A stretch of 64,000 bases of DNA from Saprospiraceae bacterium (GTDB taxonomy: Bacteria; Bacteroidota; Bacteroidia; Chitinophagales; Saprospiraceae). The stretch spans positions 62,001 to 126,000 of the forward strand of contig JAIYAP010000081.1 of NCBI GenBank assembly GCA_027488935.1, read 5' to 3'. Position 1 is the first letter of the stretch; each line of letters opens with the position of its first letter. The notes under the pieces were generated by a model. The model was not told the DNA's origin and ran no database searches. It was given only the letters and a program-made list of their open reading frames with translations. This document shows, piece after piece, positions 7,594 to 40,231 of this stretch. The translations under genes were made by a program, and so were the position numbers.

Positions 7594-7684
7594 ATCGTTC
7601 AGCAGTAGACAATTTTGGGGGTAAAATGTTTATAAACAGATGAGGCAACCGCAATGCCCTATTTTGCACCATAAAGCCAACAAA

Positions 7685-10030
7685 ATGATCAACGATATGC
7701 GCCTTTTTCTTACCGCACTGAGCCTGCTTTGCCTTGCATTTCCAGTTTTCGCACAAACCGACACGATTCCTTTCCCGCCGCTTCGTTTGGGCGAATGGCA
7801 ACAACACCTGCCCTGGCAACGCGCGACGTACGTGACGCAAAGTTCTAAAAAAACCTACTACGCAACGGAATGGGCGGTGGTTGAAATTGATAAAGTGGAT
7901 CGTACGCCCCGTTTTATCACCAAAGTAGAAGGCCTGAGTGATGTGGGTATCGGCCTGATTCGCTATAATGCTGCAGCGGATATGTTGATTATCGCCTATT
8001 CGAACAGTAATATTGATTTATACCGTCCAAGCGACGGGACGGTTACGAATTTGCCATTTATCAAAAAGAATATAAACCTGGTGGGGGACAAAAAGATATA
8101 CGACATCGCTTTTGATGGCACGGATGCTTTTTTGGCCTGTGGTTTTGGCATTTTAAAACTCAATTTGAACAAAGCCGAGGCGGTGTACACCACGTTTGTA
8201 GAAACGCCTGTGTTGTCGTTTGCCCTATACCAAAATACTTTATACGCCGGTACCACGGAAGGTGTTTTTCGCCTGCCGGCAAATGATATCAACCCGGCCG
8301 ATTTTGGGCGCTGGGAAACCTTGGGCAGCCTTCAGGGTTTTCCGCAAGGTAGCGCGGTAAACGCCATGACCGTAAAAAACGACCAATTGTACCTCGGTAT
8401 TGAAAAAAGTTTGTACCAATATAATGGAAGCACCCTTTCCTTGATTACCACCCATCCAAATCGATCGGTGGTGTACCTTACGAATGAAGGGCCGGGCGTA
8501 CTGATTGGTTGGCGCAAAGAATTTCAAGGTGCAATCGAATACCTCGAAGCCAATGGCAATCGGTACGAAATACAAGGCCCCTGCGATGCGACCATTCCGT
8601 TGTACGCCGTAGAAGATGGTACTAAAAAATTCTGGATTGCCGACTTGAACGATCGTTTCCGGTATTTCGATCTAGCGACCAATAAATGCGACTTTTTTAC
8701 GTACAACTCCCCTTTTAACCACAAATCGGCTGAGATTACCGTGGGGCCGGATGGTACCACGTATATCGCCACCCCGGGCCCAAATTCCGGTTTGAGTGCG
8801 CCGTTTTTTCAGGATGGCCTGTATGTGTACAAAGATCAACAATGGGTGTTGTGGAATAAAAACACCATTCCGGAGTTGGTAGACGATGAATTTAGTTGGG
8901 TTGATTTGTGGAAAGTAGCCGCAAGCACCACGAAAGATCAGGTGTTTGTGGGCAGTTGGGTAGGCGGCTTGCTCGATTTTACGGCAGGCGTTTTTACCAA
9001 AAAATACACGCAAAACAATTCTATTTTGAAAAATGCAGGCGCATCCGGCGCAACCCGAACGGCTATTGGCGGACTGGCATTTGACGCTTCCAGCAACTTG
9101 TGGATCAGCAATTATGGGTCGGCAGCCCCGATCGCTGTGCTCAAAGCAGATGGTACGTTGCGCAATTTCAGTGCTTCTCCCGCCCAGGGGTTGTTGCAGG
9201 TGGCGGTAGATCAAAATGGATATAAATGGTTTGTTGTGGCCTTCAATGGAGGCATTATGGTGTACGACAGCGGAAAAGACATTGACAGTCCGGCCGACGA
9301 TCGGTATAAAATTTTTACCACTTCGAATAGCGTACTGCCCACCAATTCGGTGAACTGCGTAACGGTAGATCTGGAAGGGGATGTATGGGTAGGCACCCAG
9401 CAAGGGGTGGTGAGTTTTGAATGCGGCAGCAATGTATTTGAATCGACCTGCCTGGGTCGCCGTCGCATTGTAACGGTGGATGATTTTAACGGCTATTTAT
9501 TGGAAACAGAAGATGTTAAAACCATAGCAGTAGACGGTGGTAATCGGAAATGGTTTGGCACAACGAATGGTATTTTTGTGCAATCGCCCGACGCACTTAC
9601 ACAAGTGGCCAATTATACCAGCACCAACAGCCCTTTGTTCGACAATACGATTACGGACATTGCGATCAACAATAAAACCGGAGAAGTATGGATTGGCACC
9701 GAAAAAGGCTTGATTTCACTGCGCGGGGAAGCCACCGCAGGCGGAAAAGTAAATAGTACCGCGCCGTATGCTTATCCCAATCCGGTGCGGCCTGATTACG
9801 ATGGCCCGATTGCCATTTATGGACTGGCCCGCGATGCCAACGTGAAAATTACGGATATTGCTGGTAACTTAGTCTACGAAGGAAAATCTTTGGGTGGTCA
9901 GGCGATTTGGGATGGCCGCGATTACCTGGGGCGCCGGGCTGCAACGGGGGTGTATTTGATTTTTGCAACCAGCAATGTGAGTTTTGATACGCCGGATTCA
10001 ATAATTACTAAATTGGTGATAATTAATTGA
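7685..10030 (+). CDS. porZ: PorZ-like T9SS component (two beta-propellers plus sorting domain)
   Basis: The product, about 780 residues from the chosen start, begins with a signal peptide (MRLFLTALSLLCLAFPVFAQ). It continues with the PorZ opening LGEWQQHLPWQRATYV and VEGLSDVGIGLIRYN, a hallmark of the PorZ N-terminal propeller. Repeated propeller blades follow (WVGTQQGVVSF, KWFGTTNGIFV, VWIGTEKGLISL), ending in a T9SS sorting domain from about YAYPNPVRPDYDGP (GRRAATGVYLIFAT near the end). In Porphyromonas PorZ belongs to the cell-surface attachment complex that modifies and anchors T9SS cargo, and it is about the same length. I chose ATG 7685 over 7640 because it places the signal peptide close to the N-terminus; 7697 is also possible. 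TATTTTG at 7660-7666 may be part of the promoter. Confidence 0.82.
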   Translation: MINDMRLFLTALSLLCLAFPVFAQTDTIPFPPLRLGEWQQHLPWQRATYVTQSSKKTYYATEWAVVEIDKVDRTPRFITKVEGLSDVGIGLIRYNAAADMLIIAYSNSNIDLYRPSDGTVTNLPFIKKNINLVGDKKIYDIAFDGTDAFLACGFGILKLNLNKAEAVYTTFVETPVLSFALYQNTLYAGTTEGVFRLPANDINPADFGRWETLGSLQGFPQGSAVNAMTVKNDQLYLGIEKSLYQYNGSTLSLITTHPNRSVVYLTNEGPGVLIGWRKEFQGAIEYLEANGNRYEIQGPCDATIPLYAVEDGTKKFWIADLNDRFRYFDLATNKCDFFTYNSPFNHKSAEITVGPDGTTYIATPGPNSGLSAPFFQDGLYVYKDQQWVLWNKNTIPELVDDEFSWVDLWKVAASTTKDQVFVGSWVGGLLDFTAGVFTKKYTQNNSILKNAGASGATRTAIGGLAFDASSNLWISNYGSAAPIAVLKADGTLRNFSASPAQGLLQVAVDQNGYKWFVVAFNGGIMVYDSGKDIDSPADDRYKIFTTSNSVLPTNSVNCVTVDLEGDVWVGTQQGVVSFECGSNVFESTCLGRRRIVTVDDFNGYLLETEDVKTIAVDGGNRKWFGTTNGIFVQSPDALTQVANYTSTNSPLFDNTITDIAINNKTGEVWIGTEKGLISLRGEATAGGKVNSTAPYAYPNPVRPDYDGPIAIYGLARDANVKITDIAGNLVYEGKSLGGQAIWDGRDYLGRRAATGVYLIFATSNVSFDTPDSIITKLVIIN

Positions 10031-10124
10031 TGTAGAATCAAAATCCTTCATTAAAAGGACAGAAGTGCCCAAGACTACTCAAATCAAGCATAACCTCACA
10101 GCCTCGTTTAATTCCAGCAAATGT

Positions 10125-10176
10125 GTAAATTTATTGACGGGGCGACTTTTTCAGTCACCCCGTCAATAAAATTTAC
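10125..10176. repeat. palindrome family A, copy 1 (invariant core, complementary arms)
   Basis: Arms GTAAATTTATT and AATAAAATTTAC (one-base bulge) flank the core shared by all copies: GACGGGG, GACT stem, TTTTC loop, AGTC, CCCCGTC. The opposed bases in the core (C against A on the plus strand) become a G-U type pair on the minus strand. The hairpin lies between convergent genes and could terminate transcription from either side, although no T-tract follows. Similarity to copy 2 extends about 25 bp further upstream. Confidence 0.85.
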
Positions 10177-10199: not shown

Positions 10200-11405
10200 C
10201 TATTTCCTCCCCCGCATAAAGAACCATAAGCCCCCAAAAGCAACAATCAGTATAATTGGCAGCACCCCCACATTAGAAAGTGTTGCCTGACCAGCAATCA
10301 AAGAGGCTTCTTCTCCGCTCAATCCGCGAGCAGTAGCCTCAGCCAGGTTGTTATCGAACCATTTGCCAATAATGGGCTGGAACATCGCCGTGGCCAACAT
10401 GCCTGCCCCGCCTACCAGCGAAAGTCCAAGCGCACCGCTATCGGGAATGTACTCCGACACAAAACCAATCATCGTAGGCCAGAAATAACAAACGCCGATG
10501 GCAAAAACGGCCGCTGCACCCCAGGTTGCCCAACCTTCGGCATGCGCCAAGGCAAACAAACCGATGGCAGAAATGATCGCTGAACCCAACAACATGCCCG
10601 CCGGATTGAGCCGATGCACCACCGGACCAGCATAAAAACGACCTAAGGCCATGATGCCATTGATAAAGGCTAACACCAGCAACGGCGCTGCTACCACCGA
10701 TTTGAGCAGCGACTGAATCCATTGGCCCGTGCTCAATTCCGTATTGGCGGTAAGCAACATACAAGCTGTAATGAAATAAAACAAGGGGTTGGCAAATACC
10801 GCACTGAACATTTGGCTGGCCGTGATGCCTTTTTCCACCCGTTCGGTGCGTGGAAACGCCTGTTTGTAAAACATATAACCATATACGAGCATCGGAATCA
10901 GGATAATTGCACATTGCTTACGCCAATCCAAGCCCATTTCTCCCATCAGGTAGCCCAACACGGCACCGATCACGATGCCACCGGGGAACCACACATGGAA
11001 TTTATTCAACATGGTCGTTTTTCGATCGGTGTACAAACTGGCAACCATCGGATTACAGGCAGCCTCCACCGAACCGTTGGCAAATCCCACTAAAAAGGTG
11101 CTGATGAGCAAGGCCCAGAACCCACCCGCGAAAATGGTGAGTACTAAACCAGCCAGGTGACAAGCCCAGGCAATGGCCAACATACGGCCCATCCCAATGG
11201 AATCGAGGATAATACCCCCCAAAATGGTCGCAACCGGAAAGCCATAAAATGCCATCGAGGCAATTACACCCACTTCTTCATAAGACAGGTTGAACTCGGT
11301 GCGCCAGCTATCAAGCATGCCCGCCCGAATGGCGAACGTCATAGAGGTAGTCACCAGGGCAATACAAGACGCATTGAACAGTCTTGCGGTGTTAATATTG
11401 TTCAT
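10200..11405 (-). CDS. MFS transporter (12 transmembrane segments)
   Basis: The 401-residue protein has the repeated hydrophobic segments of a major facilitator. The loop after helix 2 reads GGIILDSIGMGRMLAIAW, a degenerate version of the MFS signature GxxxDRxGRR. Segments such as LLISTFLVGFANGSVEAACNPMVASLYTDRKTTMLNKFHVWFPGG resemble sugar or FucP-type MFS members. The C-terminus is basic (FFMRGRK). It is a single gene with its own upstream region; no neighbour reveals the substrate. Inner-membrane secondary transport is secure, the substrate is not. Confidence 0.85.
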   Translation of the reverse strand: MNNINTARLFNASCIALVTTSMTFAIRAGMLDSWRTEFNLSYEEVGVIASMAFYGFPVATILGGIILDSIGMGRMLAIAWACHLAGLVLTIFAGGFWALLISTFLVGFANGSVEAACNPMVASLYTDRKTTMLNKFHVWFPGGIVIGAVLGYLMGEMGLDWRKQCAIILIPMLVYGYMFYKQAFPRTERVEKGITASQMFSAVFANPLFYFITACMLLTANTELSTGQWIQSLLKSVVAAPLLVLAFINGIMALGRFYAGPVVHRLNPAGMLLGSAIISAIGLFALAHAEGWATWGAAAVFAIGVCYFWPTMIGFVSEYIPDSGALGLSLVGGAGMLATAMFQPIIGKWFDNNLAEATARGLSGEEASLIAGQATLSNVGVLPIILIVAFGGLWFFMRGRK

Positions 11406-11684: not shown

Positions 11685-12632
11685 ATGAAACAATCACTGT
11701 TTTTACTCCTGCTTTCCATTAGCTTTTTTGTTGGTTTTAGTGCCTGTACGGAAGACGACGATGCTCCGGTAGAGCAAACCATTGTTGGTGTGGCTCAAGG
11801 CAATGCCAATCTTTCTATCTTAGTAGAGGCGCTAACCTACACCGATTTGGTAAGTGTATTGAACGGTACCGACCAATACACGGTGTTTGCACCGACCAAT
11901 GCTGCTTTTACAGCCCTGTTGACTACCTTGGGTGTAAGCAAAGTAACCGACATCAACAAAGCCGCGTTGAAAAGCATTTTGCTGTACCACGTGGTGAGCG
12001 GCGAAGTTAAATCAAGCGCCATCACAACGGGTTATGTTAAATCCGTTTCTCCATTTGGTACTACTACCAGCAACCTGAGCCTGTATGTGGTTAAAGATGC
12101 CAGCGGCGTAACCATCAACAACGGCGCAAAAGTAACAACTGCCGATGTAGAAGCCAAAAATGGCGTGGTACACGTTGTAGACAAAGTGATCACCATTCCA
12201 AATGTGGTTAACCACGCACTCAACAACCCGAATTTCAGCACGTTGGTGGCTGCACTTACCCGTACCGACTTGTTGGTAGATTATGTAAGCATTTTGAGCG
12301 GTGCAGGCCCATTCACCGTTTTTGCGCCAACCAATGCAGCATTTACCGCGCTGTTGACAGAGTTGGGTGTTGCTAACCTGAACGCTATTGATGCCAATAC
12401 CTTGAATAAAGTGTTGCAGTATCATGTGGTTTCGGGTGCCAATGTAGTTTCTTCTGCGTTGACCAATGGTCAGCAAGTAACTACCTTCCAAGGCCAAAAA
12501 TTCACCATTGGCTTGACCGGCGGCGCGAAAATTACCGATGCCAACAACCGGGTGTCCAACATTGTTGTAGTGGACGTACAAGGCTCGAATGGCGTAATTC
12601 ATGCCATCGACAAAGTATTGAGACCACTGTAA
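11685..12632 (+). CDS. lipoprotein with two fasciclin (FAS1) domains
   Basis: The 315-residue product starts with a lipoprotein signal (LLLLSISFFVGFSAC, lipobox cysteine at about 21). Two FAS1 repeats follow, roughly residues 35-170 and 175-315. Each has the H1 motif (YTVFAPTNAAFTALLTTLG and FTVFAPTNAAFTALLTELG) and the YH motif (LLYHVVSGEVKSS, LQYHVVSGANVVSS), ending NGVVHVVDKVI / NGVIHAIDKVL. FAS1 domains mediate adhesion or matrix interactions. The two domains are similar enough to suggest an internal duplication. The protein is anchored by lipid, likely outer membrane. It is a single gene ended by a clear terminator. Confidence 0.92.
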   Translation: MKQSLFLLLLSISFFVGFSACTEDDDAPVEQTIVGVAQGNANLSILVEALTYTDLVSVLNGTDQYTVFAPTNAAFTALLTTLGVSKVTDINKAALKSILLYHVVSGEVKSSAITTGYVKSVSPFGTTTSNLSLYVVKDASGVTINNGAKVTTADVEAKNGVVHVVDKVITIPNVVNHALNNPNFSTLVAALTRTDLLVDYVSILSGAGPFTVFAPTNAAFTALLTELGVANLNAIDANTLNKVLQYHVVSGANVVSSALTNGQQVTTFQGQKFTIGLTGGAKITDANNRVSNIVVVDVQGSNGVIHAIDKVLRPL

Positions 12633-12663
12633 GGGTTCTAACTCAAACACAAAACAGAAGTCT

Positions 12664-12702
12664 TCCCGAATTTTGGTTTTTACCAAAGTTCGGGATTTTT
12701 TA
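12664..12702 (+). terminator. terminator, palindrome family B copy 1
   Basis: TCCCGAATTTTGG pairs with CCAAAGTTCGGGA around TTTTTA, then a T-rich tract (TTTTTTATTT). It lies 32 bp after the fasciclin stop codon. The same hairpin sequence recurs near 29.5 and 38.8 kb. Confidence 0.85.
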
Positions 12703-12787
12703 TTTATTACCAAGAATGACAGGCATGTAAACATTATTTAAAAAACATATTAAAAACCCCCAAACTCTTTTAATCCCATGTAAATGC

Positions 12788-12840
12788 GTAAAATCTATTG
12801 ACGGGGCGACTTTTTCAGTCACCCCGCCAATAGATTTTAC
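12788..12840. repeat. palindrome family A, copy 2
   Basis: Arms GTAAAATCTATT and AATAGATTTTAC are perfectly complementary over 12 bp and differ from copies 1 and 3, while the core is identical except for the closing CCCCGCC. The copy lies between the fasciclin gene terminator and the GH13 promoter. Confidence 0.88.
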
Positions 12841-12927
12841 TTCCCCCCCCATGTAAATCAGGTATCCAGAACTAGTATTTCCTGTTTTTATTGGAAATTT
12901 CTACCCACCCTTGTACTTTCGTGTCTG

Positions 12928-12959
12928 TTGGCTGGTATGGTACCGGCTGCTATACTTTG
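12928..12959 (+). promoter_or_regulatory. promoter of the GH13 gene (TTG-N20-TATACTTTG)
   Basis: TTG at 12928-12930 and TATACTTTG at 12951-12959 are spaced by 20 bp, a near-consensus Bacteroidota promoter. The ATG at 12975 follows after 15 bp. Confidence 0.6.
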
Positions 12960-12974
12960 CTAAAGATCAAACCC

Positions 12975-14837
12975 ATGAAAGTAGTTTTCCGCCTGCTGAT
13001 CGCACTCTTGTTGTGCAGCGCTTTTGTTTCCCCAATTTTGGCCCAACCCAAACTTTACCCCAACAACTGGTGGGTAAATATGAAATGGAATAAAGTGCAA
13101 ATTTTGGTACACACCGACCAGGCATCCTTAGCGACTACCCAGGTAAAACTTACCTACGCAGGCGTGAAACTCGCAAAAGTAAACCGCCTGGAAAACAACC
13201 ATTACTTAGCGCTCGATCTTACGATTGCGCCGACGGCTAAACCAGGTGATGTAAAAATTCAATTTACCACCAATGGCAGCACCCAAACCGTGGTATGGCC
13301 CCTCCTCCCCCGCCGTACGGGTAAAGGAACCTCCTACGCCCAAGGTGTCACCTCTGAAGATTTCATTTACCTGCTCATGCCTGACCGCTTTAGCAACGGC
13401 GACCCTTCCAACGACCGCATCGCGGGCCTGCGCGACCAAACGCTCAACCGCGACTCTATTTACCATCGACATGGGGGTGATTTACAAGGTATTATCAACC
13501 ACCTCGACTATTTGCAAGACCTGGGGGTAACGTCCGTATGGCCTACCCCGGTGCTTCAAAATGATATGCCCAGCCGCACCGAACACGGTTATGCTTTTAC
13601 TGATCATTATACCATCGAACCCCGTTTTGGCGGCGCTGCGGCGTACCTGAAACTTAGCGATGCACTGCACCAACGGGGCATGAAACTTATTCAAGATGCC
13701 GTGTACAACCATGTGGGCAGTTACCACTTTACGGTACTGGACCCGCCCATGCAAGACTGGCTGCACCAATGGCCAAGCTTTACCCAAACAACCTATAAAG
13801 ACCAGTCGGCCATGGACCCTTATGCCGCCCGAAAAGATAGCAAATTGCTGTTCGATGGCTGGTTTGTGCCCAGTATGCCCGATTTGAACCAAAACAACCC
13901 GTATGTAGCCAATTTCCTGATTCAACATGCATTATGGAGTGTGGAAACCTTTGGCGTGGACGGCTGGCGCATCGACACCTATATATATAATGACTTGCCG
14001 TTCATGAACCGCTGCAACAAGGCGCTGATGGATGAGTATCCGAAAATGACGATGTTTGGGGAAACGTGGGTCCACGGCACCCTCAACCAGGCCTATTTTG
14101 CCGATAACAACCTGAATATCCCGTTTAAAAGCAACTTGCCGGGCGTAACCGATTTCCAGACCAACCTGTACGGCATTGCAAAAGCCGTGAACGAACCGTT
14201 TGGCTGGACCGAAGGCGTGAACAAACTGTACACCACCCTCAGCAACGATTTTGTGTATAAAAACCCCATGCGTAATGTCAATTTCCTCGATAACCACGAC
14301 ATGACGCGCTTTTTTACCCAGGTCAATGAAAATTTAAACAAACAAAAAACGGGCTTGATGTGGCTGCTTACCTGCCGGGGTATTCCGCAACTCTATTATG
14401 GCACCGAAGTTTTGATGAAAGGCAGCACGTATCCGGCAGATGGCTGGGTGCGCCTCGATTTTCCGGGCGGCTGGAACGGCGATGGCAAAAATGCCTTCAC
14501 AGGCGCAGGCCTAACGCGCGAAGAAGCAGAAATACAAGCACTTACGAAAAAATTCGCCAACTTCCGCAAAAAGTCCAGCGCGATCAAAACCGGTAAAATG
14601 ATGCAATATGTGCCGAACAATGGCCTGTATGTGTATTTCCGGTACGACCAAAACCAAACCGTGATGTGTGTCATGAACACCGATACCAAAGAACGTGCGA
14701 TTGATTTTGGTGCTTACGACGAACGCACCAAAGGTTTTAGCAGCGGGGTGGATGTGCTGACGGATATAAACTTGCCATTTAATGCGCCGCTTAAAATTGG
14801 GGCGCAGTCTATGATGGTGATGGAGTTGAAAAAGTAG
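12975..14837 (+). CDS. GH13 alpha-amylase/cyclomaltodextrinase-like enzyme, secreted
   Basis: From ATG 12975 the product is 620 residues with a signal peptide (LLIALLLCSAFVSPILAQ). An N-terminal immunoglobulin-like domain of about 100 residues (YPNNWWVNMKWNKVQILVHT) resembles the cyclomaltodextrinase N-domain. The (beta/alpha)8 domain carries GH13 regions I-IV: DAVYNHVG, GWRIDTY (catalytic nucleophile Asp), FGETW (acid/base Glu) and FLDNHDM (transition-state Asp). Region VII-like GIPQLYYGTE follows, then a C-terminal beta domain. All catalytic residues are present. It should hydrolyse alpha-1,4 glucans or cyclodextrins in the periplasm or at the surface. I chose this start, not one 84 bp upstream, because it begins at the signal peptide and follows the promoter. 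Its end overlaps the convergent gene by 29 bp. Confidence 0.9.
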   Translation: MKVVFRLLIALLLCSAFVSPILAQPKLYPNNWWVNMKWNKVQILVHTDQASLATTQVKLTYAGVKLAKVNRLENNHYLALDLTIAPTAKPGDVKIQFTTNGSTQTVVWPLLPRRTGKGTSYAQGVTSEDFIYLLMPDRFSNGDPSNDRIAGLRDQTLNRDSIYHRHGGDLQGIINHLDYLQDLGVTSVWPTPVLQNDMPSRTEHGYAFTDHYTIEPRFGGAAAYLKLSDALHQRGMKLIQDAVYNHVGSYHFTVLDPPMQDWLHQWPSFTQTTYKDQSAMDPYAARKDSKLLFDGWFVPSMPDLNQNNPYVANFLIQHALWSVETFGVDGWRIDTYIYNDLPFMNRCNKALMDEYPKMTMFGETWVHGTLNQAYFADNNLNIPFKSNLPGVTDFQTNLYGIAKAVNEPFGWTEGVNKLYTTLSNDFVYKNPMRNVNFLDNHDMTRFFTQVNENLNKQKTGLMWLLTCRGIPQLYYGTEVLMKGSTYPADGWVRLDFPGGWNGDGKNAFTGAGLTREEAEIQALTKKFANFRKKSSAIKTGKMMQYVPNNGLYVYFRYDQNQTVMCVMNTDTKERAIDFGAYDERTKGFSSGVDVLTDINLPFNAPLKIGAQSMMVMELKK

Positions 14838-28041: not shown

Positions 28042-28108
28042 TTGAAAATAAGCGAGTTGTGTGTAAAAGGGGTTCTGCCCTCTCTGAAACCAAGGACAAA
28101 TTTAAATC

Positions 28109-28283
28109 TATACTTGGAAATAAGTGCAAAAAAATCGTACTTATTTCCAAATATAACCCTATATTTGGAAATAACTACCGAAAAATCGCACTTATTTCCA
28201 GACATAACCCTATACTTGGAAATAACTACCCAAAAATCGTACTTATTTCCAAATATAGCCTTATACTTGGAAATAAGTATGGA
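28109..28283. repeat. 51-bp tandem repeat array with internal inverted repeats
   Basis: Three full 51-bp units (28109-28159, 28160-28210, 28211-28261) and a 22-bp partial unit. Each contains TTGGAAATAAGT or TTGGAAATAACT and ACTTATTTCCAA about 13 bp apart, so the array is a series of hairpins. The unit length is divisible by three, so frames stay open on both strands. It lies between the ATPase start and the end of the phosphoesterase gene. Confidence 0.9.
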
Positions 28284-30652: not shown

Positions 30653-30679
30653 GTTTGTGGTTTTATTATAATCAATGCA

Positions 30680-30764
30680 AAGTGGTTATGAAAACAGATG
30701 GCTTCTAATCCATTGAAAATCATTTTTTTATCCATCCACCCTTTAAATTCATTTAAATCTGGGT
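30680..30764 (+). repeat. dispersed repeat family C, copy 2
   Basis: An 85-bp copy opening AAGTGGTTATGAAAA, with core CTAATCCATTGAAAATC and a tail ending ATTTAAATCTGGGT. It matches the copy in the kdpA-kdpB gap in inverted orientation and ends one base before the histidine-kinase stop codon. Confidence 0.85.
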
Positions 30765-32495
30765 CTAGGGCAGGGTTGGCATGCTGACGATAAAGGTGCT
30801 ACCAACACCGATCGCACTTTCCACAGCGATGGACCCTCCCTGGGCTTCAATGAATGCTTTGCTGATCGCAAGACCCAGTCCGGTACCTTCTTTTTTAGCG
30901 CCGGGTGCACGGAAATATCGGTCAAAAATTTTATTTTTATATTGGGGCGCGATACCTGTACCAGTATCTTTTACAAAAAATTGCAATTGATTCAGTTGGG
31001 GCACAATGTTCAAGTAAATTATTGTATTTTCATAAGAGTACTGAATGGCATTTGCAATCAAATTGGTTAATACCCAGGATGTTTTTTCATGATCTGCTAA
31101 TATTTCGGGCAGGTTTTCGGGGTAACTTAATTCAAACTTAATTTTCTTTTGTTCCGCCTGTATTTTGGTAGCGTTGATGGCATATTGGAGCATTGCTAAT
31201 GGGGCCGCGGGGAGTATGGAAAGTTGCATATTTCCGCTTTCCACTTGCGATATATTTAACAATTCTCCGGTGATGCTCAACAGGCGGGTCGCGTCCTCTT
31301 GAATGCCTTCAACTAAGTGCTTTTGCTCGGCATTTAAAGTGCCTATTTGTTCATTTTCAAGCAATTGTAAACTCAATTTAATGGATGCAATGGGTGTTTT
31401 AAATTCATGTGAAAGCGTGGCAATGAAGTTTGTTTTGGCAAAATCGAGTTCCTTGTATTCGGTAATATTGCGCAAGATAATAACATGACCGATCACAACG
31501 ATGTCTTTTTCGGCAGTCGGGGTGATGGAGATTTGTAGATTTTGTTTTTCAAAATAGCTCTCTTTCCCATCCGCATAAATTTTGATCGGATTTATTTTAT
31601 GGGTTTTTGCATCCTGCGCTGGCTGCCCAATATCCTGCACCAGCGCCCGAATGAGGTCATTTTGAAGCGCCAGTTCTTTGGCCGGTTTGCCAATTAAATC
31701 GGGTTGTTTTAACCCAATGATCTGGACGGCTTCTTCATTCACAAAAATTACATTCAATTGCTCATCCAACCCGAGTACAGGGTCGTGCATGTTGTTAATA
31801 AGCGTTTCAATGCGCTTTTTTTCCATCATGAGTTTCGACAAATTGCTATTGTTGTACTCTTGCAGTTTTTCGGCCATGATGTTAAAAGACCGGGCCAGGT
31901 CACCGTATTCATTGTGCGTTTCAAAATGCACCCGCTCTGAATATTTTTTATCTGCTATTTGTTTTATACTGTTAGTCAGTTCATTAATAGGGTCAGCAAT
32001 GTTGGAAGGCAGGTTAATTAACAGGGTAAAAGCGATCAGAAAACAGAGGGTCGCCGTAGCCGCAATCCAAAAAGTAGCAAATTCTGCGGTTTCCTGGGCG
32101 TGTTCACTCTTGCGCTGAATGGCATGCATGTTCATCTCCATCAATTTGTAGATTTCCTTGCGCATGCGTGGTTTGCGTAAACTATCTGCCGAATTTAATT
32201 TAAATTCATTATAAAACGCCCTTAATTGTTGGGTGACTTCCAATTCCCCAACTTCTGTAATGGTATGCTCTTGCGCAACCAGGTTTTCTTCGAATATTTC
32301 CTGCGATTTATCATCCGATAAATCCAGTTCCACCAACATTTTACGCGCATAATCCAGGGTATTGTAATTAGCCACTAAAATATTTTCTGTATCTGCTTTC
32401 AAGGCATTGATGTAAATGGCCCCCACCAATCCCAGCAGGATGATCAGCATAAACAATAGGCCAACGCCCAACGTAATTTTGGTTTTAATTTTCAT
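30765..32495 (-). CDS. membrane sensor histidine kinase of the split KdpD pair (HAMP-PAS-HisKA)
   Basis: The 576-residue protein has two membrane segments (about 8-30 and 143-164) flanking a periplasmic helical domain, then HAMP (IADPINELTNSIKQIADKKY), PAS (LINNMHDPVLGLDEQLNVIFVNEEAV), HisKA with FIATLSHEFKTPIASIKL (phospho-His) and HATPase (VLTNLIANAIQYS N-box; FVKDTGTGIAP; GTGLGLAISKAFIEAQGG). It starts directly after the stop of the KdpD sensor gene (TAA-ATG), so the two act together as a split KdpD. In proteobacteria these parts are one polypeptide. Expected partner: the NtrC-type regulator at 38885-40231. Confidence 0.9.
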   Translation of the reverse strand: MKIKTKITLGVGLLFMLIILLGLVGAIYINALKADTENILVANYNTLDYARKMLVELDLSDDKSQEIFEENLVAQEHTITEVGELEVTQQLRAFYNEFKLNSADSLRKPRMRKEIYKLMEMNMHAIQRKSEHAQETAEFATFWIAATATLCFLIAFTLLINLPSNIADPINELTNSIKQIADKKYSERVHFETHNEYGDLARSFNIMAEKLQEYNNSNLSKLMMEKKRIETLINNMHDPVLGLDEQLNVIFVNEEAVQIIGLKQPDLIGKPAKELALQNDLIRALVQDIGQPAQDAKTHKINPIKIYADGKESYFEKQNLQISITPTAEKDIVVIGHVIILRNITEYKELDFAKTNFIATLSHEFKTPIASIKLSLQLLENEQIGTLNAEQKHLVEGIQEDATRLLSITGELLNISQVESGNMQLSILPAAPLAMLQYAINATKIQAEQKKIKFELSYPENLPEILADHEKTSWVLTNLIANAIQYSYENTIIYLNIVPQLNQLQFFVKDTGTGIAPQYKNKIFDRYFRAPGAKKEGTGLGLAISKAFIEAQGGSIAVESAIGVGSTFIVSMPTLP

Positions 32496-36213: not shown

Positions 36214-36218
36214 ATTAT

Positions 36219-36303
36219 ACCCAGATTTAAATGGATTTGAGGGATCGATGGATAAAAAAATGATTTTCAATGGATTAAAATCCAGCCATTTTCATAACCA
36301 CTT
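36219..36303 (-). repeat. dispersed repeat family C, copy 3 (inside the kdp operon)
   Basis: An inverted 85-bp copy occupying most of the kdpA-kdpB gap. Read on the minus strand it ends ATTTAAATCTGGGT five bases before the kdpB ATG. Over its length it closely matches the copy at 30680-30764. Confidence 0.85.
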
Positions 36304-36319
36304 AGCGTTGGCTATATGC

Positions 36320-38005
36320 TTATTTGGTGAATAATTCAGCAATCGGACCTAAGGCGAGGGCTGGGAAGAAAGCAAGCGCGGCTACGATGGCGATGACGGC
36401 AAAAACCATGATGCCAAAGGTGCCGGTATCGGTTTTTAAGGTGCCTGCGCTTTCGGGAATGTACTTTTTGCCTGCTAAGATACCCGCAATGGCTACCGGA
36501 CCGATGATGGGCAAATAACGGGATAGAATGAGGATAAAACCGGTGCTGATGTTCCACCAGGGGGTGTTGTCACCCAGGCCCTCATAACCGCTGCCGTTGT
36601 TGGCCGCACTCGAAGTGTATTCGTACAGCATTTCGCTAAATCCGTGAAACGTGGGGTTGTTCAGGGTGCCCGCCGTGTATCCCGGGAAAGAAACTGCCAG
36701 CGCGGTGCCAGCCAGGATTAAAAAAGGATGCAGCAAGGCAATGATCATCGCAATTTTCATTTCCTTGGCTTCAATTTTTTTGCCCAAAAACTCAGGTGTC
36801 CGTCCCACCATCAAGCCGCTTACAAATACGGCTAAGATGATGAAAATGAAATAGTTGAGTATGCCCACCCCGCAACCGCCATAAAAACAGTTGGTCATCA
36901 TAGCCAGCAATTGGTTGATGCCCGCTACCGGCGTAAAACTGTCGTGCATGCCATTTACACTCCCCGTAGAAATGACGGTGGTGGCAATGCTCCAATAGGC
37001 CGTAGAAGCCGCTCCGAACCGCAGCTCTTTCCCTTCCATGTTTCCTCCGGGCTGTGATACACCGAGTTGATCCATGGCAGGACTCCCCTTCATTTCAGCA
37101 ACAATGGTCGGAATCGTAAGCAGTAAAAAGCCGATGGTCATCACGCTAAAGATTGTCCAGGCCAATTTGCGGCGTTTCAGAAAAATACCGAACGCGAAAA
37201 TCATGGCGAAAGGGATCAGCATTTGGGAGATCATTTCCACCATATTGGTCCAATAACTGGGATTTTCAAAGGGATGCGCGGAATTAGCACCAAAAAAACC
37301 GCCCCCATTGGTGCCCAAGTGTTTGATGGCCACAAAAGCCGCCACCGGGCCGCGACTTACTTGCACGGTATCGCCTTGCAAACTCACCACCGTGTCTTTG
37401 CCTTCGAAGGTCATGGGCGTACCGTTGAACATCAAAATGGCCGCAACAATCAGGCAAATGGGAAATAAAATGCGGGTGGCCGACTTTAAAAAGAAGTTAT
37501 AAAAGTTGCCCAGGGTTTGATAGGTGCCCGTGCGCAAGGCATAAAAAACGGTCACTGCCGCCGCCATACCCGTTGCTGCCGATACAAACTGCAGGAACAT
37601 CAGGAATAATTGTCCGAGGTAACTCAGACCGCTTTCACCCGAATAGTGCTGCAAATTGCAGTTGACGATAAAAGAAATGGCCGTGTTGAACGCCAAATGG
37701 CCGGACATGCTTGGATTGGCATCCGGATTGAGTGGCAACCAGCCCTGGTTCATAAGCACCGCCATGCCCAGCACAAACCACACGAGGTTGATGGTTAAGA
37801 GCGCCGCCATTTGTTGTTGCCAGGTCTGTTCCTGGCGCGCATCAATGCCCGACACTTTAAACAACAGGCGTTCAATGGGGTTAAAAAGGAAGTCTAAAAA
37901 CGTCCGTTCGTTGCCATATACTTTTGCCATGTAACTGCCGAGGGGCAGCGCAAGCAATAACGTGGCGGCGAACATGACGATGATTCCGAGTATTTCCGTG
38001 TTCAT
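36320..38005 (-). CDS. kdpA: KdpA, potassium-binding channel subunit
   Basis: From ATG 38005 (NTEILGIIVMFAATLLLALPLG) 561 residues, 10 or so membrane helices. Selectivity-filter-like segments include NTAISFIVNCNLQHYSGE, KHLGTNGGGFFGANSAHPFENP and TNCFYGGCGVGILNY, all diagnostic of KdpA; SSAANNGSGYEGL is also present. Four bases separate kdpF and kdpA. The upstream extension to 38053 overlaps kdpF and is rejected. Confidence 0.97.
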   Translation of the reverse strand: MNTEILGIIVMFAATLLLALPLGSYMAKVYGNERTFLDFLFNPIERLLFKVSGIDARQEQTWQQQMAALLTINLVWFVLGMAVLMNQGWLPLNPDANPSMSGHLAFNTAISFIVNCNLQHYSGESGLSYLGQLFLMFLQFVSAATGMAAAVTVFYALRTGTYQTLGNFYNFFLKSATRILFPICLIVAAILMFNGTPMTFEGKDTVVSLQGDTVQVSRGPVAAFVAIKHLGTNGGGFFGANSAHPFENPSYWTNMVEMISQMLIPFAMIFAFGIFLKRRKLAWTIFSVMTIGFLLLTIPTIVAEMKGSPAMDQLGVSQPGGNMEGKELRFGAASTAYWSIATTVISTGSVNGMHDSFTPVAGINQLLAMMTNCFYGGCGVGILNYFIFIILAVFVSGLMVGRTPEFLGKKIEAKEMKIAMIIALLHPFLILAGTALAVSFPGYTAGTLNNPTFHGFSEMLYEYTSSAANNGSGYEGLGDNTPWWNISTGFILILSRYLPIIGPVAIAGILAGKKYIPESAGTLKTDTGTFGIMVFAVIAIVAALAFFPALALGPIAELFTK

Positions 38006-38009
38006 GGGT

Positions 38010-38087
38010 TTAGAATTTTTCGGGTTTGAGCAGGACGTAACACATATAGCCAAAAACAGCCAGTGCGACGAAGAAGAGGATCATCAT
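38010..38087 (-). CDS. kdpF: KdpF, small membrane subunit
   Basis: A 25-codon frame starting at tandem ATGs (38087, 38084): MMILFFVALAVFGYM, then CYVLLKPEKF and stop. One hydrophobic helix and the charged tail with L-x-K-P-E-K are typical of KdpF, which stabilises KdpABC. It is four bases upstream of kdpA and is the first gene of the operon behind a sigma-54-type promoter. Confidence 0.85.
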   Translation of the reverse strand: MMILFFVALAVFGYMCYVLLKPEKF

Positions 38088-38400: not shown

Positions 38401-38453
38401 GTACTCCCTACTGACGGGGCGACTTTTTCAGTCACCCCGCCAGTAGGGAGTAC
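38401..38453. repeat. palindrome family A, copy 3
   Basis: Arms GTACTCCCTACT and AGTAGGGAGTAC pair perfectly (12 bp) yet share almost no middle sequence with copies 1 and 2. The core is the same as in copy 2. It lies in the 800-bp gap between kdpF and the response regulator. Confidence 0.88.
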
Positions 38454-38592
38454 ATGATAGGGCATAAATATGTGTGCATTTACGCGCTATTTTTTTGATG
38501 TTTGAGATCTTATCAAGGACTTATAATTAAATGAAAAATATTTTAATGCAAATGTTTTTGATAATCAATGATTTAAAGTTAATTTTAGCATC

Positions 38593-38768: not shown

Positions 38769-38814
38769 AGGTCGGAAGAAACCCCAACTAAATATCTCAA
38801 AAAAGAAAAGAGTC

Positions 38815-38849
38815 ATCCCGAATTTTAGTTTTCACCAAAATTCGGGATG
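38815..38849 (-). terminator. terminator-like hairpin, palindrome family B copy 3
   Basis: ATCCCGAATTTT and AAAATTCGGGAT form the stem. On the minus strand the tract after it is T-rich (CTCTTTTCTTTTTT). It lies 36 bp after the response-regulator stop codon. Confidence 0.75.
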
Positions 38850-38884
38850 ACGCCCATGTTAAGCATTTGGATATTGTAGCTGGC

Positions 38885-40231
38885 TTACTGAATCTTATAT
38901 TCCTCCAGTTTCCGATACAAGGTAGTAATGGCAATATTCAGCAGGCGCGCCGCTTCGGACTTATTGCCGTTCGTATAATTTATTACTTTTTGAATATGCA
39001 GCCGTTCCACACTCGACAAATCAAAGGCCGAAAGCACGGTATTGGCACCGCTTTCCATCGGTTTTTGTTGCAAATCAATGGGCAACGAATCAATATCAAT
39101 GGTATCCTGGTCGGTGAGGATCACGCTGCGTTCGATGATGTTTTTTAATTCGCGGATATTTCCCTTCCAGGTATTATTCTTTAAAAAAGCTAAATATTGA
39201 TCTGTGACATGATTGATTTTCTTATTCGATCGAGCCGCAAACATCGCGACAAAATGCCTGGCCAGGGGTTCAATATCCAGCACGCGCTCGCGCAGGGGCG
39301 GTAATTTTATTTGAAATACAGAAATACGATAATAAAGATCTTCGCGAAAATGACCGGCTTCTATTTCCTGTTGCAAATTGCGGTTCGTGGCAGCAATAAT
39401 GCGAACATTTACCTTGGTTATTTTGGTGTCACCTACCCGGATAAAGGTGCCCGTTTCGAGCACACGCAGGAGTTTTGCTTGCAAATCCAGGGCCATTTCA
39501 CCAATTTCATCCAAAAATAAAGTACCCTGATTGGCTTCTTCAAACAAACCTTTTTGATCCTTTAAAGCACCTGTGAATGCGCCCGCTTTATGGCCAAAAA
39601 GTTCATTTTCCAGCAAATCTTTGCTAAATGCGGCGCAATTGATGGCCACAAAACTGTATTGGTTGCGGGCGCTTTCCTGGTGAATGGCCTGTGCAAACAC
39701 CTCTTTTCCCGTGCCCGTTTCGCCGGTAAGCAGCACCGTCGTATCCGTGATGGCCACTTTTCTGGCAAATTCAATGGCTTGTTGAATAGATTTTGATTTG
39801 CCAATAATATTTTCGAATGCGTATTTATTTCCGAGTTGTTTTTCTAATTGTTTTACCCGTTTTGCTAAATTTACTTTTTCCGTAACGCGGGAAAGCAGGG
39901 GAATTATTTTATTATTATCATCCCCTTTTACAATATAATCAAATGCGCCATTTTTAATTGCCTGCACGCCATCGGGAATATTGCCGTAAGCCGTCATTAA
40001 AATCACCTCAACAGGCGGGTATTTTTCTTTAATTTCTTTACAAAGATCCACGCCATTGCCGTCGGGCAATTTCACATCACAGAGTACCGCGTCGATATTA
40101 TTTTGCTCCAGTTTTTTCAGGGCCGTTTTACAATCGCCCGCTTGCAGCACTTCATATCCCTCCAAACTGACAATTTTGGTCAGCAAACTGCGGAGTTTTT
40201 CTTCATCATCGATGATTAGTACGGTTTTCAT
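38885..40231 (-). CDS. NtrC-family sigma-54-dependent response regulator of the kdp locus
   Basis: 448 residues. Receiver domain 1-120: IIDDEEKL, VLCDVKLPDG (phospho-Asp about 54), MTAYG, K about 104. The AAA+ domain has Walker A LLTGETGTGKEVFA, the sigma-54 contact loop GHKAGAFTGAL, Walker B GTLFLDEIGEM and arginine finger region FREDLYYRISVF. A Fis-type HTH lies at the end (NKSEAARLLNIAITTLYRKLEEY). Classical kdp loci use the OmpR-type KdpE; this is a replacement. TATCTTTG at 40258-40265 (minus) gives it a sigma-A-type promoter of its own. Confidence 0.93.
   Translation of the reverse strand: MKTVLIIDDEEKLRSLLTKIVSLEGYEVLQAGDCKTALKKLEQNNIDAVLCDVKLPDGNGVDLCKEIKEKYPPVEVILMTAYGNIPDGVQAIKNGAFDYIVKGDDNNKIIPLLSRVTEKVNLAKRVKQLEKQLGNKYAFENIIGKSKSIQQAIEFARKVAITDTTVLLTGETGTGKEVFAQAIHQESARNQYSFVAINCAAFSKDLLENELFGHKAGAFTGALKDQKGLFEEANQGTLFLDEIGEMALDLQAKLLRVLETGTFIRVGDTKITKVNVRIIAATNRNLQQEIEAGHFREDLYYRISVFQIKLPPLRERVLDIEPLARHFVAMFAARSNKKINHVTDQYLAFLKNNTWKGNIRELKNIIERSVILTDQDTIDIDSLPIDLQQKPMESGANTVLSAFDLSSVERLHIQKVINYTNGNKSEAARLLNIAITTLYRKLEEYKIQ

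Follow-up and report, generated by a model that had tools for sequence, protein, structure and literature searches.

Dispersed palindromic repeats of bacteria include the REP, BIME and REPIN elements, which in the sections of PMC3116915 and PMC8266576 used here are intergenic, palindromic and multi-copy, and occur as inverted doublets, ordered arrays and solo remnants. Compensatory changes are common in REPIN hairpins (PMC3116915, in part), and cleavage of E. coli REP requires a conserved mispair in the stem (PMC8266576, in part). The GTAG- and CGTC-tagged palindromes, as covered in part of PMC3733652, fall into sub-types with alternative complementary stem residues, and the CGTC class, which occurs in Bacteroidetes, is described there as lacking a dedicated transposase. 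Stems may also be kept paired by the copying process itself. In quasipalindrome correction, or template switching, reverse-complement copying creates and keeps perfect stems through simultaneous double changes, as demonstrated for RNA genes in the portion of PMC8794818 that we draw on.

Here we describe a family of hairpins found in a 64,000-nucleotide stretch (the window) of the genome of a Saprospiraceae bacterium. It shares with REP, BIME and REPIN elements the intergenic position, palindromic form, high copy number, inverted doublets, ordered arrays and solo remnants, as well as complementary changes in the hairpin and a conserved stem mispair. Unlike them, each half is itself a 52-53-nt hairpin with an invariant centre and freely varying outer arms, and unlike in a REPtron no adjoining transposase gene was found. 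The sub-types with alternative complementary stem residues recall the GTAG- and CGTC-tagged palindromes, and the family is so far without a transposase of its own, like the CGTC repeats; its stem of 24 bp, however, exceeds the 5-13 bp listed in the consulted part of PMC3733652. A fixed unpaired end tag of the GTAG/CGTC kind is absent from the 127 listed copies, whose ends are mostly GTW...WAC and paired. The likeness to template switching lies in the double changes, with the difference that ours is a dispersed intergenic repeat with few shared sites.

The three hairpins of the window are intergenic and have one core in common, while their arms differ between copies and each arm is complementary to its own partner, as an earlier note on this DNA had claimed. 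The 23-nt inner core is found exactly at these three places only in the window, against 0.05 matches expected after shuffling. Copy 1 (10125..10176, plus strand; arms GTAAATTTATT / AATAAAATTTAC) is a type A hairpin between the ORFs 7640-10030 (+) and 10200-11405 (-) of the ORF listing. It adjoins a conserved type A 5′ flank (10079..10124, plus strand), assigned by similarity to other A copies and with approximate boundaries; the 3′ flank of the type A half is missing. Copy 2 (12788..12840, plus strand; arms GTAAAATCTATT / AATAGATTTTAC) is also of type A, adjoins the conserved type A 5′ flank at 12765..12787 (plus strand), and is located between the listed ORFs 11685-12632 (+) and 12891-14837 (+). 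Copy 3 (38401..38453, plus strand; arms GTACTCCCTACT / AGTAGGGAGTAC) is a type B hairpin between the listed ORFs 36320-38053 (-) and 38885-40231 (-). It is followed on its 3′ side by a piece of the B-to-A linker of full units (38454..38517, plus strand), with the A half missing, and 38399-38517 matches the linker plus B hairpin of a full unit. The size of 53 bp with 12-bp arms given in the earlier note holds for copies 2 and 3, which are fully matched over 12 bp; copy 1 is 52 nt long because its 5′ arm is one base short (11 vs 12).

Other repeats are present in the same window. A 56-101-bp intergenic repeat, 80-86% alike between copies, occurs in both orientations at 2617-2672, 30667-30767 and 36216-36316, and a related stretch precedes the type A half at site C29:67123 (sites are labelled contig:position). 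Positions 28097-28279 hold three direct units of a 51-bp tandem repeat that itself contains inverted repeats (TATACTTGGAAATAA..TTATTTCCAAATATA). At 12660-12696 and 38812-38851 there is a second hairpin family (TCCCGAATTTTGG..CCAAAATTCGGGA), which has T tails and is similar to CGTC-class palindromes; it is seen again beside many copies of the core hairpin and occupies places in a sister species, G023, where the core hairpin is missing. An ordinary intrinsic terminator was rejected as an identity for the core hairpins, which have no T run, and terminator listings of these regions give other hairpins only. Rfam gave no matches at the gathering threshold in the window.

The core is dispersed far beyond the window. 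In the genome that holds it (G000; 6.28 Mb in 88 contigs) the exact core occurs 31 times, up to two of these perhaps being double counts because four sit at contig ends with identical sequence; the reversed control pattern gave none. Decayed copies were added by a looser pattern and a BLAST search. With one mismatch allowed, the core matched seven of 60 genomes, G000 included. When these seven were inspected, the core itself proved to be confined to three members of a single genus (G000, G003 and G023); the other four have a plain palindrome with a different loop. In a scan of genome contigs, exact cores were found in 55 stretches of four assemblies, CAIVGO01 (G023), JAAFHO01 (G003), CAIRHD01 and CAJAXK01 (G065, G066), and viral contigs gave no exact core match, which leaves a viral origin unsupported. 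The search for the core with arbitrary flanks, which the earlier note had proposed, thus brings out a dispersed family with further copies in four other genomes. Among 23 G000 positions examined, 22 are outside called ORFs and one is inside a 90-aa ORF.

The copies fall into types with conserved flanks beyond the arms. A full unit of ~300 bp consists of a flank, a 53-bp hairpin A, a linker, an inverted 53-bp hairpin B and a second flank; copies 1 and 2 correspond to the A half and copy 3 to the B half. The entire A-linker-B stretch can be aligned across eight full units from G000 and G023. Doublets in G000 comprise five inverted A-B pairs 132 bp apart and one pair at 119 bp, and most G000 cores are solo. 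A different pair of types, with 119-bp spacing, is amplified in G023 to six alternating hairpins, and alternating arrays of six and five are found there. Because the flanks outside the arms are conserved between copies, it is the longer unit that spreads. Read by eye, the general form in G000 and G023 is GTW, ~5 free bases, TAYTGWC, GGGGCGACTTTTTCNGTCACCCC, and then the complements; arms are shorter, ~6-8 bp, in the other genomes. With many dispersed intergenic palindromes, inverted doublets and ordered arrays, the family is REP/BIME-like in the loose sense.

How strongly the two arms are tied to each other was measured at arm positions 4-15 by re-dealing the 3′ arms among copies in 500 shuffles. 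The test used 108 of the 127 listed copies, the other 19 being from unassigned genomes, having short flanks or more than one core mismatch, or repeating identical arms. In G000, 288 of 312 arm pairs are complementary (shuffled mean 216.8, maximum 242), and in G023, 425 of 480 (shuffled mean 278.9, maximum 311). Ten positions outside the arms show no such excess (G000, 78/260 vs 86; G023, 142/400 vs 141). No pairing excess was seen in G003 (53/132 vs 57 shuffled), where the arms hardly vary, and G065 and G066 together show little (165/372 vs 146), mainly at inner pairs. Complementarity beyond shuffled controls thus holds in G000 and G023 and fails in G003. The pooled shuffles mix sub-types and keep relatedness; the test was repeated within type A alone. 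Of the 27 strict type A copies, 26 are paired at pair 8 (shuffled mean 8.6, maximum 17), which takes all four Watson-Crick forms (C-G 10, T-A 8, G-C 7, A-T 1, with one T.G); pairs 5, 6, 12 and 13 hardly vary, whereas pair 8 varies freely. All 12 pairs are intact in 37 of the 66 G000 and G023 copies, and at least nine of 12 in 60. The remaining six fall below nine, being truncated, shifted by one base or differently flanked; flanks that do not complement each other thus occur, in a small number of copies. These data bear out the suggestion that pairing is strongly constrained while the arms diverge.

The earlier note had also proposed that selection appears to act on the minus-strand RNA or on folded DNA, as opposed mispairs become G-U pairs on the minus strand. 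The core C/A mispair on the plus strand is as described, and the A/C mispair in the inner triplet is correct for copies 2 and 3. Folded as RNA, copies 1, 2 and 3 give -33.1, -39.9 and -46.8 kcal/mol on the minus strand and -28.2, -30.5 and -37.7 on the plus strand; the minus strand owes its stronger fold to the core C/A and to the triplet A/C at position 2. Both mispairs recur in G000 and G023, the core C/A being nearly fixed and the triplet A/C occurring in 33 of the 66. Across arm positions 4-15 of both genomes, however, there is no clear bias, with 16 plus-strand G.T pairs and 13 plus-strand A/C mispairs, which are G.T on the minus strand. A decayed copy at C11:110047 has five changes of the C-to-T type, favouring the plus strand. 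Within an A-B doublet the halves face opposite ways; whichever strand is transcribed, one half is read in each orientation. Selection for the minus strand is weakly indicated, by the two recurrent mispairs. By analogy with E. coli REP, a fixed mispair read by a transposase fits equally well as selection on a minus-strand RNA.

The earlier note had suggested looking for a transposase gene of the REP type (TnpA-Y1); Y1 genes exist in these genomes, and none of those inspected bears the core. G000 has four Y1 genes, one classed by NCBIfam as a REP-associated tyrosine transposase (RAYT, NF047646) and three IS200-like. None of 22 Y1 genes inspected (12 in G000, G003 and G023; 10 in G065 and G066) is flanked by the core, with some flanks ending at contig ends, and the hairpins seen beside Y1 genes belong to other families, so that for now the element counts as an orphan. 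The RAYT was rejected as owner: it is flanked by its own hairpin GGGCTCTGCCCG..CGGGCAGAGCCC, and the core-bearing G003 has no match to this RAYT. This flanking hairpin is seen at the REP-associated transposases of G000 and G023 (locus L092, 4533-4638 and 5453-5487; locus L202, 703-813), the G023 copies being at contig ends. The 168-aa IS200-like Y1 genes of G000 and G023 adjoin a long palindrome (L089, 7005-7077; L207, 3514-3586) that belongs to the ACAAATGCACGACTTCTCCGAAGTC family and is likely their own repeat. Cargo or helper genes were sought among 621 ORFs lying near cores (86 loci). A single cluster extends over 12 loci, of long repeat proteins that are adhesin-like by look; the other clusters are one locus represented repeatedly.

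Sites occupied in both G000 and G023 allow the arms to be followed after landing. Ten same-site hairpins were compared, a single unit being used for any G023 array. By script they differ by five complementary double changes and nine single arm changes, eight of the singles being at C17:25724, which a one-base insertion puts out of register and which by eye has one real change; re-reading all ten by eye gives five doubles and two singles. The site C67:23403 was set aside, as its flanks differ by 22% and 49% and it may be another insertion. The remaining nine sites, again read by eye, have one single and four complementary doubles; C17:25605 accounts for two of the doubles, C72:26332 and C11:110047 for one apiece. 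If changes were independent, 0.06 doubles would be expected, and none of 200,000 trials reached four; two of the four come from C17:25605, whose partner was picked among three units of a G023 array. Eighteen other hairpins in the same shared stretches (25 in the full set, of mixed kinds) have two complementary doubles and 17 singles. Comparison of these sequences suggests that a change in one arm tends to be accompanied by the complementary change in its partner, also in copies that have already landed. Changed sites amount to 9/216 (4%) in the arms and 11/207 (5%) in the core, with 6 of the 11 core changes from one copy, and to 3-14% in alignable near flanks. At C11:110047 the paired arm change occurs despite a decayed core.

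Other sites differ in occupancy. G023 is 89-97% identical to G000 around many copies. Copy 2 is present there with arms unchanged, followed by ~228 bp as compared with ~28 bp in G000, in which the break coincides with the 3′ arm's end. At the copy 1 site, G023 has 53 bp with an unrelated palindrome in place of 141 bp; at C29:67123, 278 bp in G000 correspond to 2-3 bp; and the sites equivalent to copy 3, C11:108175 and C72:36138 are without the core. The hairpin is thus missing at five sites with both flanks aligned, by gain or by loss, one relative having been compared. A flank search of G023 gave no usable site for 9 of 14; among the other five, four had both flanks aligned and C37:31532 the left only. 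No useful site pair is shared between G000 and G003, G065 or G066 at flank similarity of at least 300 bp. An integron attC and a MITE-type target duplication were also considered; at C29:67123 there is no clean duplication. The five sites bear on the idea, raised in the earlier note, that a bare core inserts into pre-existing palindromes. None of them holds a palindrome with the same arms and the copies share flanks beyond their arms, which makes this reading highly improbable, even though the base of the left arm at C72:36138 (GTTAAA) resembles the G023 sequence at the same site (GGTAAA). That copy (locus L014, 1450-1530) is a bare hairpin that looks as if its left arm had been extended by copying the flank.

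A host role at gene ends, such as a two-way transcription stop, protection of mRNA 3′ ends or gyrase/HU binding, with compensatory mutations selected after landing, would also keep the arms paired. It agrees with the mostly intact arms and with an excess of copies between convergent genes: 13 of 22 classifiable G000 positions, as compared with 53 of 278 intergenic positions sampled across the window (19%; P = 4e-5), in a test that used a crude ORF caller, a window-only baseline and 23 of ~36 G000 positions. Convergent gaps may, however, simply be the least harmful landing places, and the excess leaves room for a host role or for insertion tolerance. We consider such selection unlikely, as none of the three window copies is terminator-like or has a T tail, the core drifts at shared sites, the decayed-core copy still shows a paired arm change, and five sites lack the hairpin in G023. 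Alternatively, the arm variants would be made elsewhere, with gene conversion or repeated insertion at the same spot swapping whole hairpins and pairing needed for transposition only. The same pairs vary in place and between copies, as this would predict, and the new arm types at C67:23403 and C11:110047 are common in the family, the flanks of the former being divergent. However, GTAAGTTTTATT at C72:26332 is in no other copy listed, conversion at C11:110047 would have had to hit both arms and spare the decayed core between them, and at C17:25605 the sequence just beyond the arms is identical in both species. On this evidence, swapping of whole hairpins appears unlikely.

The reading we prefer, which we put at about an even chance, is that the family is a non-autonomous REP-like (BIME-like) repeat, mobilized in trans, the arms of which are matched in place by template switching. 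In this scenario, the unit would have spread through intergenic DNA, probably by means of an HUH/Y1-type single-strand transposase acting in trans, which may recognize the invariant core near the loop together with the C/A mispair conserved in it. The units would then have broken into solo hairpins by deletion, with some breaks at the hairpin base. That free yet paired positions adjoin fixed ones indicates that the hairpin is recognized during spreading, for which the arms presumably must pair, the sequence being free at pairs 8-11. After landing, a mutation in one arm may be copied to the other by a template switch at the fork (quasipalindrome correction), so that the arms would drift as a pair. 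Template switching is favoured because the arms change no slower than their surroundings and because one case lies beside a decayed core. Several observations argue against it: nine clean sites are few, one copy accounts for half of the 11 core changes, and the core C/A and triplet A/C (33/66) persist, which steady template switching should mend. In addition, fixed pairs 5, 6, 12 and 13 next to free pair 8 in type A look like recognition rather than neutral drift, and against the proposed mobilization stands the absence of the core beside every Y1 gene inspected.

A wider version of template switching holds that arms are rewritten from each other at a roughly neutral rate, so that perfect, changing hairpins persist without selection and the covariation is a mutational footprint; we regard this as tentative and rather doubtful. 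Quasipalindrome correction across genomes was reportedly the subject of a 2003 paper, and no paper joining "repetitive extragenic palindromic" with "template switch" was found in the open-access literature covered. Complementary changes in a stem are usually read as a sign that an RNA or DNA structure is under selection. If template switching makes the paired changes found here at shared sites of two species, covariation alone would be no proof of function, and families with many dated copies could be used to measure the rate of template switching. The present family adds a REP-like repeat, apparently without its own transposase, to a poorly surveyed group of bacteria within the Bacteroidota, and may provide a natural test of how DNA hairpins stay paired.
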